This document shows positions 5,392 through 25,616 of a stretch of 25,672 nt of DNA, one piece after another. The notes beneath the pieces were generated by a model. It did no database searches and had not been told where the DNA came from. It saw nothing but the letters and a program-made list of their open reading frames with translations. Where the stretch lies: IMG/VR virus record IMGVR_UViG_3300037069_001914, positions 1-25,672 of that record. The stretch is one strand, 5' to 3'. Every line of letters starts with the position of its first letter. The stretch's first letter is position 1. This stretch comes from a virus. A program made the position numbers and the translations under genes.

Positions 5392-5410
5392 ATAATTAAG
5401 CTATTATTAG

Positions 5411-5470
5411 TGTTTATTACCAATTATTACTATTTATTACCAATTATTAGTGTTTATTACCAATTATTAA
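5411..5470 (-). repeat. Three tandem 20-bp repeats at the end of terL
   Basis: On the plus strand three consecutive 20-bp units occupy 5411-5430, 5431-5450 and 5451-5470. They share a TTTATTACCAATTATTA core and differ only at the second base and at the last base. The copy at 5451-5470 contains the terL stop and its last codons (N-N-W-stop), so the other two look like duplications of the gene end into the gap. The unit is not a multiple of three. Function may be iteron-like binding, or the array may be a slippage product. Confidence 0.85.
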
Positions 5471-8090: not shown

Positions 8091-8466
8091 TTTTATTCGC
8101 TCCGACGTACATTTTGATCATCTCTTTTTTTAATTGAGCTACAATGTTGAAAACTCTAGATTTTTTAAATTTCTGTAGGTTCAAAAAAGTTGATATTTGT
8201 CTTATAGTGAAGCCTTCAGAGTAAAGACGCCAAATTTCTTTTTCAATATCATTTTTGAAATTGTAGTCATGTAAAAATTTACCGGCTAGCTGATAATATT
8301 CTTCTTTTGCTTTAAATTTTTCGTGACCATAAAAACTATAAAACATGGCTCCTTCTGATTGAAACTTGATATGATCTAATTTTTCTATGTCGTCAAAGCC
8401 TTCTTTTTCAAGCTTTTTATACCACTTATCTTGTAATAATTTAAATTGTTTACTGTTCGTGTCCAT
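8083..8466 (-). CDS. Helix-turn-helix protein, small terminase subunit or regulator candidate
   Basis: The 127-residue product is helical and basic. Residues about 76-118 (EIWRLYSEGFTIRQISTFLN, then FKKSRVFNIVAQLKKEM) read as a helix-turn-helix: an acidic/aromatic helix, the turn EGFTIRQIS, and a recognition helix. This pattern is shared by phage small terminase subunits and by sigma-like or resolvase-like HTHs. Its place a few genes before terL makes TerS reasonable, but a late-gene activator would also fit. It overlaps the upstream gene by 17 nt. No metal site is seen. Confidence 0.5.
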   Translation of the reverse strand: MDTNSKQFKLLQDKWYKKLEKEGFDDIEKLDHIKFQSEGAMFYSFYGHEKFKAKEEYYQLAGKFLHDYNFKNDIEKEIWRLYSEGFTIRQISTFLNLQKFKKSRVFNIVAQLKKEMIKMYVGANKNE

Positions 8467-8833
8467 TTGAAGCCTGTTGTGCTAATAGTATGGCTTCTTG
8501 TGCTTTTTTATTGGCAGCGGCTTCTTGAATAGCTTTCACTTCGGCAGCTTGCTCTTGTTTTATTTTATACATCATTCCACCTGCAATTTCTTTTGCACAT
8601 GCGGCTTTAATAACTAAGAAAAAATAATGTTTAGCTTTGTATGCAGTAGTTTGGCTTAGGGTAGTAATATTACTAGCTAATACGAATCTATAAGATCTAT
8701 TAAGATCTTGACTTCTAGCAAATTCATAAGTAGAGACGATGTCTTCGGCCCAAATTTCAAATTCGGATGTTCCAATAGGAAGTTTACTTGGGAATAAATT
8801 TCTAATTTGTTTTAAAAAATTCTTAATTGTCAT
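8450..8833 (-). CDS. Hypothetical helical protein opening the packaging/head operon
   Basis: The 127-residue product has a globular N-terminal part (MTIKNFLKQIRNLFPSKLPI, FEIWAEDIVSTYEF) and a C-terminal Ala/Gln/Lys-rich helix (residues 85-127). The Leu/Pro pattern followed by F/W-E-x-W-A resembles small podophage-type proteins coded upstream of terminase genes, whose function I do not know. The ATG at 8833 and half of its SD are inside a 15-bp inverted repeat, so its translation is probably regulated. It is the first gene after the accessory island and may lead the late operon. Confidence 0.6.
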   Translation of the reverse strand: MTIKNFLKQIRNLFPSKLPIGTSEFEIWAEDIVSTYEFARSQDLNRSYRFVLASNITTLSQTTAYKAKHYFFLVIKAACAKEIAGGMMYKIKQEQAAEVKAIQEAAANKKAQEAILLAQQASNGHEQ

Positions 8834-8890: not shown

Positions 8891-9004
8891 TTAGCATATA
8901 AAAACTATGTGATATCCTAATTTTGATAAAGCTTTGTATGCTTCAAAAGAAATACTAGTAATTACAACAACTTGATTATTTTCATCAATATAATAGGATT
9001 TCAT
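8891..9004 (-). CDS. 37-residue small protein
   Basis: The ATG at 9004 overlaps the stop of the upstream gene as ATGA, and GAGGT lies 7 nt before it, so coupling is likely. The product starts MKSYYIDENNQVVVITSI and ends GYHIVFIC. It has alternating strand-like residues and one helix (SFEAYKALSKLG), a compact alpha/beta microprotein. The family is unknown. It is the last gene of the Ala-rich protein cluster and may work with those proteins. Confidence 0.5.
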   Translation of the reverse strand: MKSYYIDENNQVVVITSISFEAYKALSKLGYHIVFIC

Positions 9005-9549
9005 TTCAAATACCTCAATAAGATTGTTCTAATTTTTCTTTCAGTGTTTTGACCGTTTAGCTGGGCCGCAGTACAAGTAGTGAAATAAATAATATTATCA
9101 GCAGCAGCAGCAGCTCTAGCAGCACAAGCAGCGGCCCAAGAAGCAGCAGCAGCGTTAGCAGCATCTTTAGCGGCGACCGTCCAGGTAGAATCAGCAGCTC
9201 TAGCAGCAATATGATAAGCATTAGCAGCATTAGCAGCTGCTACTTTACAAGCTTCTACATCTAATATTTTAGCTCTAGCTGCTAAAATGGCTAGCCTTGG
9301 CCGTTTATCGTTAGGATATTTAGCTTCAAATATTGGCAAAACCAGTTCAGCTATATCTGCTGCAGCAAAACGTAGTAACTTTTTATCCATTAGCCTAACA
9401 GCTACCCATATTTTGTCATTATGGCTAATATTCCTTAAACCCATAAACTGTTTAGGTGTAAAGTCTCTGTCGCTGTAATGCTTTAAATAATTATTGAATC
9501 TATCTTTACATGGATTTAGTTTAGCTATTGTTTTTTTGTTAATATTCAT
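9001..9549 (-). CDS. Ala-rich protein resembling Imm-5-like putative immunity family
   Basis: The 182-residue product has an N-terminal region with KLNPCKDRFNNYLKH at 10-24, then DKIWVAVRLMDKKLLRFAAA (44-63), ADIAELVLPIFEA, and PNDKRPRLAILAARAK around 79-95. This order (Cys, W/L helix, LP-x-F-E, D-x-RPR-x-AI-x-AAR) followed by an Ala-rich helical array is the pattern I recall from the Imm-5-like putative immunity proteins. Residues about 103-150 are Ala-rich with periodic W, R and aromatic residues. It is a paralogue of the next gene upstream (9539-10228): NPC...YLK and the IWV/LWV helix align. SD AAAGGA lies 10 nt before the ATG. Function in phage is unknown. Confidence 0.6.
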   Translation of the reverse strand: MNINKKTIAKLNPCKDRFNNYLKHYSDRDFTPKQFMGLRNISHNDKIWVAVRLMDKKLLRFAAADIAELVLPIFEAKYPNDKRPRLAILAARAKILDVEACKVAAANAANAYHIAARAADSTWTVAAKDAANAAAASWAAACAARAAAAADNIIYFTTCTAAQLNGQNTERKIRTILLRYLK

Positions 9550-10228
9550 ATTTTTTAATCCTTTCGCCTGCTTCTATTAAAATCATTTCAATGAGTTTTT
9601 CTTTTTGAGCAGACCTGGCAGCAGACTTGGCAGCAGACCAGGCAGCAGACCTGGCAGCAGACCAGGCAGCAGACCAGGCAGCAGACTCAGCAGCAGACTC
9701 AGCAGCAGACTCAGCAGCAGACCAGGCAGCAGACTCAGCAGCAGACCAGGCAGCAGACAGGGCAGACCTGGCAGCAGACCCAGCAGCAGCAGACAGGGCA
9801 GCAGACAGGGCAGACCTGGCAGACCAGGCAGCAGACCTGGCAGCAGACCAGGCAGCAGACTCAGCAGCAGACAGGGCAGCAGACCTGGCAGCACTTAATT
9901 CTTCTCGTGATGCTTTATCTAAAGCAAATGCTTCGGATATATCAGCAGCCTTTATGCTTCTAGGATCGGGATTTTTAACAAAAACAAGGGTTTGTCTGTA
10001 AGACCACACAGCAAAAAGACGCATGAGTTTTTCAGATGGAATTTCTGTTCTTAAAATAACCCATAATCTATCTTCAAAAGGTATGTATTCATTGTTTAGT
10101 ATATCAATAGCAGAACCTTTAAAATTTTCTTTTAAGTATTTAGACGGATCATAACAAGGATTCGAACTTCTAATATCTTCAATTGTAAACTTCTTCAATC
10201 CGGTTTTTTTGCTATACTTAAGTTTCAT
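9539..10228 (-). CDS. SAAx-repeat protein, paralogue of the neighbouring Imm-5-like protein
   Basis: I choose the ATG at 10228 (MKLKYSKKTGLKKFTIED), 229 residues, because AGGAG lies 7 nt upstream and a sigma70-like promoter sits just before it; an ATG at 10279 overlaps the polymerase gene and lacks such support. The N-terminal domain (residues 1-110) has SNPCYDPSKYLKENFKG and EDRLWVILRTEIPSEKLMRL, which align with the neighbour. Residues about 112-207 are 25 units of mostly S-A-A-x, with x being W (7), R (6), E (5), L (4), K (1) or G (1), followed by a helical end (KEKLIEMILIEAGERIKKYE). A four-residue repeat with amphipathic x suggests a long Ala helix or helical stack. It overlaps the following gene by 11 nt. 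Confidence 0.65.
   Translation of the reverse strand: MKLKYSKKTGLKKFTIEDIRSSNPCYDPSKYLKENFKGSAIDILNNEYIPFEDRLWVILRTEIPSEKLMRLFAVWSYRQTLVFVKNPDPRSIKAADISEAFALDKASREELSAARSAALSAAESAAWSAARSAAWSARSALSAALSAAAGSAARSALSAAWSAAESAAWSAAESAAESAAESAAWSAAWSAARSAAWSAAKSAARSAQKEKLIEMILIEAGERIKKYEY
9608..9895 (-). repeat. 288-bp minisatellite encoding (S-A-A-x)n
   Basis: The array is 24 periods of a 12-bp unit, TCTGCTGCC/T plus NNG on the minus strand. The variable codon is TGG, AGG, GAG, CTG or AAG, always ending in G; units of 9 and 15 bp also occur but keep the frame. It is far more GC-rich than its surroundings. Frame-preserving unit changes point to expansion and contraction by slippage or recombination under selection. 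Confidence 0.95.
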
Positions 10229-10247
10229 GTACGTTCTCCTATTAAAG

Positions 10248-10278: not shown

Positions 10279-12381
10279 TTATTTTAAATCGGCTATTGTT
10301 TTAGCTATTATAGGTTGGGCTAATAAACTAACGCCGGGTAATAAAACAGTATTTTCCATAGAATGTTTTAAAACAGTTTTAATGTCTTCTGCAAGTTCTT
10401 CTGGTCCTTCCACTATTAATTCATCATGCACTTGTAGAACAATGTTAACATTTGTCCATCCTAAATCTTTGCAATTATTATAAAAAGCTATGCTTGCTCT
10501 ATTCATAATGGAAGCACCGGTGCTCTGAATGGTATGATTAATGGCTAAATTCAAAGTATTTCTTGCCTCATAAGGCAAGTCACCGTGGGATTTATTGCCG
10601 TATACTTTGGGTATTTCCATTGCTAAAGGCATTCTTCTGGGTCTACCAAAAAGATTCACTACTCTTCCTTGTTTTTTAGCAGTGTCATGTGCTCTTAACA
10701 TAAGATTTTTTACATTAGGAAATCTCTCAAAGTAATTGTCAATAATTTCCTGCGCTTCATCTATTCTTTTACCTAGTGCGGGGGCCATTTTAGGAGCCGT
10801 AGTTCCATAAGTAGCAGATAAAGCTATTACTTTAGCTGCGTTTCTTAATTCAGGAAATTTCTTAGCAAATGAGTTATTATCATCTTTTTTTAAAGAATAT
10901 CCTGTCTTATCAAACACTTCTGCCCCAATAACTGAATAAAAATCATCTCCGTCCTTAAAACAATTTAATAGCCGTTCATCTTCAGAAAAACTTGCAAACA
11001 CTCTTGGTTCTAATTGAGAATAGTCGGCTCCAATAAATACTTTGCCGGGGCGAGACATAAGACAAGCCTTAATTCGTTTTTCGTCTCTTGGTAAATTTTG
11101 AAAATTTGGATTTTTAGAACTATATCTACCTGATGTAGTTCCATGTTGAAGAAAAGAAGGCCTAATTATGTTATAGCGCATACGAGATTGAATACCCTCA
11201 ACATATGTATTGAGTAGTTTCATATTTTTAGCATATAATAAGTATTTTTTAACCCACTCATACTTGTTTTCAAATTGTTTAAGTACAGTTTTATCGCATG
11301 CTATGTAGTTCCACACGTCTGTGACTTTTTTAGGTCGCATAGTACGTCTGGTCTTTGGATTCCAACTACCTTGATCCCAAATTTGATCTTTTCTGTCCTG
11401 TACGGCGTGTATAAATTGTATTCTAGCTTTTCTCGTATATACCGGAGGGAGATTTAATGCTTTAGCTAGATTTCTTCCTTCTTTCGTCAACCCGGTGAAA
11501 TCATTGTTTAATTGAAAGAATAAAAGCCATGATAATTGTTTACCTGAAGCTATATTGAAAGTGTTTGTCTTTTTAGTGCTTGGGTATTTTGCCTTAACAA
11601 ATGGTGTTATTTCATTATATATAAACGCTTTAGCTTCTAAGCATTCTGCTTCCAATGTGCCTTTTAAATTTTGTAATTTTTCTGGATCAACTCTAAGACC
11701 CACAGTATTTAATTGGTAGGTTGGACCCCTCAATAGCGGCATAGTTTCATCTTCATAAAAGAATTTATCTAGTCCTTCCTCAAACAACTGAGGTACCAGG
11801 GTATAGAATATTTTAAGAGTCAGTATAGCATCCTTAGCTCCATAGAGGCCAATTAGATCTGCATCGGCTTTATAAAGCTCATAGTTGTCTTTGGTTAACT
11901 GACCTCCATTAGTTATGACAGATTCTTTCATTTTTATTTGTTGTTCTTTAGCGTCTTCTCCAAACAAAGACACGCCCAGTTCTTTTAAACCATTTGATCT
12001 ATTTTCATCTAACAAATGTCCTAACATAAGAGTATCAGTATGAATGTAATCTATAAGAGATATGCCATAATTGTTTTCTATCATAGAGCAATCAAATATT
12101 GCATTATGACCTATTAAATTTTTACCTATAAGAAGAGACAAAGTTTCTTTTGCGTAATCGGCCGTCTCTAAATCAATCAACTGTTGTTTTTCCTTATCCC
12201 AATATGAATTAATTACATAAAAAGCTTCATCAGTATTGGCACAAATGGAATAACCAATAATCTTTGAATCTTTTTCAATCCCGGTGGTTTCGGTATCAAA
12301 AGCTATATAATCATTAACTTTTATGTATTCTTGTAATTCCAGTAGATCTTTTAAAGTTTTTATTACTATTAGTTTTTCCAT
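10279..12381 (-). CDS. polA: Family A DNA polymerase with 3'-5' exonuclease
   Basis: The 700-residue product is the likely replicative polymerase. The exonuclease domain has FDTETTG (D29, E31), GHNAIFD (D97) and YGAKD (Y180, D184). The palm and fingers have SGRYSSKNPNFQNLPRD at 417-433, motif A GADYSQLEPR (D453), motif B R513-x3-K517-x3-L521-x3-Y525-G, and motif C VLQVHDELI (H652, D653). The residue equivalent to E. coli Phe762 is Leu521. There is no 5'-nuclease domain, as in T7-like polymerases. All catalytic acids are present. It abuts the methyltransferase gene directly. Leu at this position has been tied to slower or more accurate synthesis and to particular replication gene sets in viral polymerase surveys; applying that here is inference. 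Confidence 0.97.
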   Translation of the reverse strand: MEKLIVIKTLKDLLELQEYIKVNDYIAFDTETTGIEKDSKIIGYSICANTDEAFYVINSYWDKEKQQLIDLETADYAKETLSLLIGKNLIGHNAIFDCSMIENNYGISLIDYIHTDTLMLGHLLDENRSNGLKELGVSLFGEDAKEQQIKMKESVITNGGQLTKDNYELYKADADLIGLYGAKDAILTLKIFYTLVPQLFEEGLDKFFYEDETMPLLRGPTYQLNTVGLRVDPEKLQNLKGTLEAECLEAKAFIYNEITPFVKAKYPSTKKTNTFNIASGKQLSWLLFFQLNNDFTGLTKEGRNLAKALNLPPVYTRKARIQFIHAVQDRKDQIWDQGSWNPKTRRTMRPKKVTDVWNYIACDKTVLKQFENKYEWVKKYLLYAKNMKLLNTYVEGIQSRMRYNIIRPSFLQHGTTSGRYSSKNPNFQNLPRDEKRIKACLMSRPGKVFIGADYSQLEPRVFASFSEDERLLNCFKDGDDFYSVIGAEVFDKTGYSLKKDDNNSFAKKFPELRNAAKVIALSATYGTTAPKMAPALGKRIDEAQEIIDNYFERFPNVKNLMLRAHDTAKKQGRVVNLFGRPRRMPLAMEIPKVYGNKSHGDLPYEARNTLNLAINHTIQSTGASIMNRASIAFYNNCKDLGWTNVNIVLQVHDELIVEGPEELAEDIKTVLKHSMENTVLLPGVSLLAQPIIAKTIADLK

Positions 12382-25178: not shown

Positions 25179-25616
25179 CTAATTAATTGAAGAATCAGCT
25201 GATATGCGATCCATACGAGCCAATTCATTTGCCGTAAGCTCTTGCATTACGTGTTTAACTTTTCTACTTAAAAGAGGCGATAGCGCTAATCCTAAGTTAT
25301 TAGAAAACAACAACAAGGCTCTTTGTTCAGAAGAGCCTTTTGAATAGTTAAATTGATCTAAAGTTCCTACTAGTTGCACCGGGGATAGTGCATTGAATAC
25401 ATCTCTTATTGTAGGTTCTCCTACTATTTCATAGCCACCGTGAGGACCTCTAACGCTTTTAATAACGCCTGCTATTCTTAATTTTCTAGCTACTTGTTCT
25501 AAAAAACTTTGAGACAGTTGTAAACCCTCTGCAATTTGATCTAGACTAATTCTACCCGATCTTGTCAAGTAAAGCGCAAGAAGTATGCCATATTGTGTTG
25601 CCTGATTAATCCTCAT
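25179..25616 (-). CDS. Rrf2-family transcription regulator without Fe-S cysteines
   Basis: The 145-residue product has the Rrf2 winged helix-turn-helix: MRINQATQYGILLALYLTRS, then SLDQIAEGLQLSQSFLEQVA (recognition helix), and wing VRGPHGGYEI with the G-x-x-G-G hallmark. The dimerisation helix region follows. There is no cysteine at all, so it cannot bind the [Fe-S] cluster used by IscR/NsrR. It resembles cysteine-less members. It lies at the start of the early region, 10 nt before the next gene, and may control phage or host promoters. AGGAG is 11 nt before the ATG. Confidence 0.85.
   Translation of the reverse strand: MRINQATQYGILLALYLTRSGRISLDQIAEGLQLSQSFLEQVARKLRIAGVIKSVRGPHGGYEIVGEPTIRDVFNALSPVQLVGTLDQFNYSKGSSEQRALLLFSNNLGLALSPLLSRKVKHVMQELTANELARMDRISADSSIN

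Follow-up and report, generated by a model that had tools for sequence, protein, structure and literature searches.

A Shuffled Ser-Ala-Ala-x Coding Minisatellite in Phage Accessory Proteins with a Possibly Selected Aromatic, Acidic and Basic Residue Mix

The viral DNA analysed here, referred to as the window, is the whole 25,672 bp IMG/VR record IMGVR_UViG_3300037069_001914, a linear fragment of a tailed phage. One of its minus-strand genes encodes an array of four-residue units Ser-Ala-Ala-x (SAAx), which is a coding minisatellite within a phage accessory protein. Comparison with related arrays indicates that duplication, deletion and rearrangement affect entire units and preserve the frame, hence the near-identical silent positions within each phage. 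At x, aromatic, acidic and basic residues occur in nearly equal shares and in random order, as W/E/R with x codons ending in G and as Y/D/R with those ending in C or T. The best explanation, to which we would give about an even chance, is a shuffling of units under selection on the bulk chemistry of a helical array and not on unit order. Coding minisatellites usually turn uniform or yield disordered tails; here the silent sites are uniform, whereas a balanced x mix is apparently selected.

Results and Discussion

The array gene and its repeat

The gene and its parts are arranged as follows (pLDDT, predicted local distance difference test).

9542–10228, minus strand: coding sequence of the array protein, 229 aa, from the list of open reading frames (ORFs); stop codon at 9539–9541
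10234–10240, minus strand: Shine-Dalgarno-like AGGAGAA, seen in the sequence 5 nt upstream of the ATG at 10228
9899–10228, minus strand: helical N-terminal domain with a possible relation to phage proteins of the Imm-5-like type (AlphaFold2, Foldseek, alignment with 16 viral relatives)
9614–9895, minus strand: SAAx array of 24 units (20 of 12 bp, three of 9 bp, one of 15 bp); x = W, R, E, L, K, G
9542–9613, minus strand: C-terminal cap SAQKEKLIEMILIEAGERIKKYEY (alignment; pLDDT rises to about 91), with a similar SAQ...L cap in many relatives

Tandem Repeats Finder reports a 12-bp array at 9608–9893 of the window (24.3 copies, score 318), and the pattern TCTGCTGCNNNGTCTGCTGC has 16 minus-strand matches in the array region versus none in 100 dinucleotide-preserving shuffles, so that the in-frame 12-bp SAAx minisatellite described for this phage gene by an initial annotation is present where it had been placed. 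Its count of 25 units comprises 24 whole units, after which the translated array ends with a truncated SAQ. With translation starting at the ATG at 10228, SAAR first appears at residue 112, as had been given; this start was picked by the AGGAGAA site, a longer ORF of 246 aa beginning at an upstream ATG. The irregular units do keep the frame, the three 9-bp units encoding SAR, SAL and SAL and the 15-bp unit SAAAG. All x codons are NNG (TGG, AGG, GAG, CTG, AAG and one GGG), and the previously listed W, R, E, L and K are therefore to be completed by a single Gly. Ser-Ala-Ala is spelled TCT GCT GC(C/T) in nearly all window units, the third codon being linked to x: GCT precedes GAG, and GCC precedes TGG, AGG, CTG or AAG.

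The phrog_18326 profile matches the window array protein with E=4.8e-26 across residues 32–192 of the 246-aa ORF, which cover the N-terminal domain and the array; no Pfam family matches it at E<=10. A full-length tblastn search with the window protein against cultured phages gave no match, probably due to low-complexity masking, and cultured carriers were found instead by using relatives with better conserved N-terminal parts as queries.

Distribution of SAAx arrays

Considerably more than 130 proteins of viruses and prophages carry SAAx arrays of this type, and their flanking domains include several unrelated ones. At least 119 stretches of viral contigs match a degenerate DNA pattern for five SAAx units, and a bacterial and archaeal genome collection contributes 76 stretches, including 20 arrays with family flanks. 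While the first DNA scan demanded NNG at x, a second scan accepting any x codon lifted this bias, added arrays and exposed the Y/D/R type. Scans based on TCN undercount the family because mycobacteriophages write Ser as AGC. After masking of the arrays, the flanks (at most 170 residues on the N-terminal and 120 on the C-terminal side, in which stray units may be included) cluster into two large groups of 94 and 52 arrays and some small ones. Homology of the two main flanking domains is not supported by profile comparison (hhalign probability 1.8%). Proteins with DUF7666 (PF24703) and DUF6745 (PF20530) are also among the carriers (L062, L124 and L129).

Cultured carriers include Xanthomonas phages as well as mycobacteriophages such as SG4, Llama and Shauna1, with a homologue in 148 mycobacteriophage records, and a close variant with Ala or Asp replacing Ser is encoded by Burkholderia phage Bcep176 (gp36) and Pseudomonas phage PPpW-3 (ORF54). 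Girr and Fruitloop have no such gene at the site where other mycobacteriophages carry the homologue. A cytotoxicity screen of Girr (PMC11075535) was considered as a test of the array gene and discarded, since Girr gp52 is a different protein and Girr is without the array gene. Literature searches retrieved no published description of the repeat.

Two side observations concern carriers outside these phages. In a protein type unrelated to the window gene (L062, L061 and L111), an SAAx array stands immediately upstream of a DUF6745-type domain, as shown for L062. Family arrays are furthermore found on contigs assigned to archaea (L256 and L279; Candidatus Methanoperedens and Nitrososphaeraceae metagenome-assembled genomes), which could be viruses or other elements of archaea.

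Silent sites and the x codon

Per-site diversity in family arrays is 0.041 at the wobble positions of Ser-Ala-Ala versus 0.557 at the first two bases of the x codon (x1/x2). Family arrays from the genome scan gave comparable values of 0.037 and 0.535, whereas arrays without family homology in the same scan gave 0.103 and 0.186. Aromatic, acidic and basic residues are all present in 16 of the 20 family arrays from that scan, versus only one of 47 non-family arrays. Wobble identity amounts to about 95% within arrays versus about 30% between them, Arg is written exclusively AGG or exclusively CGG in 78 of 79 arrays, and the frozen silent spelling differs from phage to phage. Because wobble variation within arrays is mostly tied to the type of x, units are copied whole. 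Codon preference was rejected as the cause of the frozen silent sites, as the two Ala codons of a unit differ from each other, yet each is fixed, in 34 of 90 arrays.

Among 1421 consecutive units, x is R in 439, E in 421 and W in 407, Trp accounting for about 29%. Transitions between neighbouring x residues match those of shuffles, which corresponds to a random order with only a mild E-to-W excess (z 3.2), and on these grounds the idea that salt bridges dictate an order of E followed by R was rejected. The scatter of x composition between arrays is near multinomial, with a dispersion of 1.2–1.7 and a lag-1 identity of 0.29; a neutral simulation with 20 turnover events produced 4.6 and 0.57, respectively. 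Arrays with x codons ending in C or T, of which there are 12, mostly encode R, D and Y. That different codons yield one recurring chemistry is the most telling indication of selection on amino acids rather than on DNA.

Three loci of Actinobacteria (L218, L230 and L245; Kribbella, Pseudonocardia) contain uniform SAAW or SAAR minisatellites, which are usable as controls for neutral slippage.

Unit turnover between related genes

Turnover was measured pair by pair as N-terminal nucleotide identity against unit edits. All evidence on turnover derives from genes of other phages; the only very near relative of the window (L130, 100% terminase identity) is a fragment outside the array gene. In these comparisons, unit number and order change at a far higher rate than the remainder of the gene. 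Identical N-terminal parts go with identical arrays in most pairs, and in one pair of that kind the array of L095 is one unit longer than that of L092. At 98.6–99.4% N-terminal identity some paralogues or relatives are already 7–10 edits apart in 10–27 units, and at 85% the arrays are unrelated, as in KPhi1 with 18 and XapPhi3 with 33 units. The encoded array is identical in KPhi1 from Serbia and phiXaf18 from Mexico.

The mycobacteriophage genes were read fully in 14 genomes of the 148 records. Twelve whole units (144 bp) are the sole difference between Llama (12 units) and Seabastian (24 units), without any substitution, and a 31-codon (93 bp) tandem copy is the sole difference between Zapner and Jabbawokkie. 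Inventum carries the same 31-codon duplication, and as its two copies differ slightly, the duplication is no assembly artefact there. SG4 and CaptainTrips are distinguished by one unit and four x changes, a two-base R>E change included, with no synonymous change in the gene, while Shauna1 and WillSterrel differ by five units, three x changes and one synonymous change. Two-base x changes without silent change (such as CGG to GAG) fit unit replacement better than point mutation.

The comparison of unit numbers among relatives, which the initial annotation had proposed, thus reveals differences of 1 unit, 12 units or 31 codons at identical N-terminal parts. The rapid evolution suggested there holds for in-frame changes of unit number and order, but not at the speed of phase variation, because arrays stay unchanged between many of the nearest isolates. 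Frame-breaking variants at equal frequency had been named as evidence to the contrary; such arrays exist (Ardmore gp46 and L003/L122) but are rare among those seen. Viral contigs mostly stem from short-read assemblies, and some unit numbers may for this reason be too low.

At L003:3989-4429 the array has lost the stretch linking it to the N-terminal domain and is read in another frame, as VGS(M/R/K), with the SAAx frame still open through to a normal C-terminus. Recent duplicates of the array gene within one genome (L099; L250/L284) have about 99% identical N-terminal parts and clearly different arrays.

Predicted structure

AlphaFold2 modelled the window protein with a mean pLDDT of 75, the N-terminal domain mostly reaching 85–95, the array 35–75 and the cap about 91. 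The array is predicted to be helical, in line with the helical protein supposed at the outset, and in a protein from the other large flank group it is modelled as two long helices connected by a turn, with a confident C-terminal end. Since its pLDDT is low, the array fold is to be taken as a prediction only. The Foldseek match in BFVD is the Imm-5-like protein A0A6J5RNF9 with a probability of 0.99, but an E of 0.26 and a TM of 0.42–0.45, accompanied by further matches to other phage proteins. Sequence and fold searches of the PDB gave no match at E<=0.001, and NCBIfam profiles of TolA-like Ala-rich rods matched weakly.

Explanations for the balanced x mix

The copying, loss and reshuffling of whole units homogenises the silent sites within each phage; if selection acts on the bulk chemistry of the array, it would maintain the aromatic, acidic and basic mix at x on a Ser/Ala-rich helix regardless of order. 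The predicted fold divides the array into long helices doubling back on one another, with a docked C-terminal cap, and the stripe of intermixed aromatic and charged side chains may then provide a surface for multivalent binding or self-assembly, which we infer from composition and predicted fold. Length would be free within wide limits, as the turn can shift by whole units. Several points weigh against this explanation. The control arrays, at 7.6 units on average, fall short of the family arrays at 15.4, so that the contrast between them is diminished, though not abolished; one of the three chemical classes is missing in 31 of 137 arrays, and the simulation represents one simple turnover scheme. 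The pLDDT of the array (35–75) is low, and literature searches yielded no functional test of any family member. Finally, the gene is absent from Girr and Fruitloop and the array is frame-broken in the survivors Ardmore and L003/L122, so that it is dispensable at least in these.

Alternatively, the order of W, E and R along the helix could itself form a recognition surface against a changing target of the host or of competitor phages, the random order being the outcome of an arms race; the possible diversification against a host target raised by the initial annotation would belong here. We regard this as somewhat unlikely. In near-identical genes x does change with few or no silent changes (SG4/CaptainTrips, Shauna1/WillSterrel), each lineage has its own unit order, and paralogues of the same genome differ in order at about 99% flank identity (L099; L250/L284), but the order is statistically random without apparent conserved positions, unit number spans widely (10–30 in the sample used for the dispersion test), the KPhi1/phiXaf18 array is unchanged across continents, and no partner is known. 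A largely neutral spacer, i.e. a helix-compatible minisatellite that slips with its frame kept and whose x mix serves only helix solubility, would account for the free variation of length and order, for an accessory gene with frame-broken copies and for the weak profile matches to TolA-like rods. Neutral turnover should however render x as uniform as the wobble positions, whose diversity x exceeds about 14-fold; a solubility filler would hardly be expected to have Trp at about one third of its x positions, and non-family arrays of the same pattern are mostly uniform at x, which makes this explanation distinctly unlikely. Judged from x usage and unit changes in the arrays, targeted mutagenesis of the x codon, be it diversity-generating-retroelement-like or another hypermutation, appears highly improbable, even though variation is largely limited to two bases of one codon amid frozen silent sites: mainly three chemistries are used although NNG and NNY encode many residues, the predominance of W/E/R does not resemble random changes at template adenines, two-base changes repeatedly produce already existing unit types, as shuffling of units would, and the switch from W/E/R to Y/D/R depends on the third base.

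A bolder proposal is a convergent three-letter helical module of aromatic, acidic and basic residues on unrelated phage domains, with selected composition and recombined order, in its strongest form an evolving recognition code against targets of the host or of rival phages; we consider it unlikely. The aromatic, acidic and basic mix recurs with different codons in many lineages and unrelated proteins, and the 148 mycobacteriophage records alone constitute a ready natural library for the role of a helix of random order and fixed composition. This library also bears on the question whether composition or sequence underlies the action of those phage accessory proteins that are classed as "putative immunity".

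Comparison with known systems

Rods of the TolA domain II type are long Ala-rich helices serving as spacer or stalk. We know of none with an aromatic, acidic and basic triad or a shuffling four-residue unit, and the likeness to the SAAx array lies in the Ala-rich helix and the weak NCBIfam match, without evidence of homology. Viral members of DUF6745 (PF20530) and DUF7666 (PF24703), both domains of unknown function, in some cases carry an SAAx array beside the domain; neither domain was found in the window protein by Pfam search. The neighbour of the array gene belongs to Imm5_like PF21805 (along with phrog_18326, phrog_3416 and phrog_8332, all of unknown function), whose relatives have in common the N-terminal motif RLFAVWCAR...DPRS...AERFANG and an Ala-rich tail. 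The array protein itself differs in having no Pfam match, and the array also follows other domains with no detectable relation.

The tandem repeats of Borg proteins (aaTRs) are in-frame repeats of an extrachromosomal element that evolve fast, have unit lengths divisible by three and return similar amino acids under different DNA; they are mostly perfect, commonly intrinsically disordered and almost devoid of Trp (PMC9879509). All 24 window units likewise lie inside an ORF and measure 9, 12 or 15 bp. Unlike aaTRs, SAAx arrays have one hypervariable codon per unit (x1/x2 diversity 0.56), Trp at about 29% of x and predicted helices. BACON-domain repeats of crAss-like phages are reportedly evolving tandem repeats of a phage protein too and consist of whole domains instead of four-residue units (PMC6949934).

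Genomic context

Besides the array gene, the window encodes a terminase, a portal protein, a DNA methyltransferase and a replication module. Adjacent to the array gene lie the following features.

9001–9549, minus strand: neighbouring Imm5_like gene (Pfam PF21805) with a degenerate Ala-rich tail, its start overlapping the end of the array gene
9001–10228, minus strand: two-gene accessory cassette between a DNA polymerase-like gene (10279–12381) and a conserved gene (8450–8833)

The assignment of 9001–9549 to PF21805 (E=3e-6) is above the gathering cut-off with 27.6 bits versus 25. Relatives found via the terminase (54–63% identity) retain much of the window gene order, and none of the syntenic L132, L133, L137, L140 and L142 has a homologue of either cassette gene between the polymerase and the next conserved gene. 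As both genes are missing there, the pair is best read as accessory cargo; in L135 and L149, the homologue of 9001–9549 sits at another position. No toxin gene was recognised beside the array gene, the family name Imm5_like being a Pfam prediction, and PADLOC defence profiles gave no family at E<=1 for either cassette protein (9542–10228 and 9001–9549).

Elsewhere in the window, an Rrf2-type transcription regulator is encoded at 25179–25616 on the minus strand (Pfam PF02082, E=4e-14), with homologues in the related phages L136 and L149. A 20-bp direct repeat of 3.3 copies (ATTATTAGTGTTTATTACCA) at 5403–5469 spans the terminase gene's 3' end together with the gap that follows the preceding gene.
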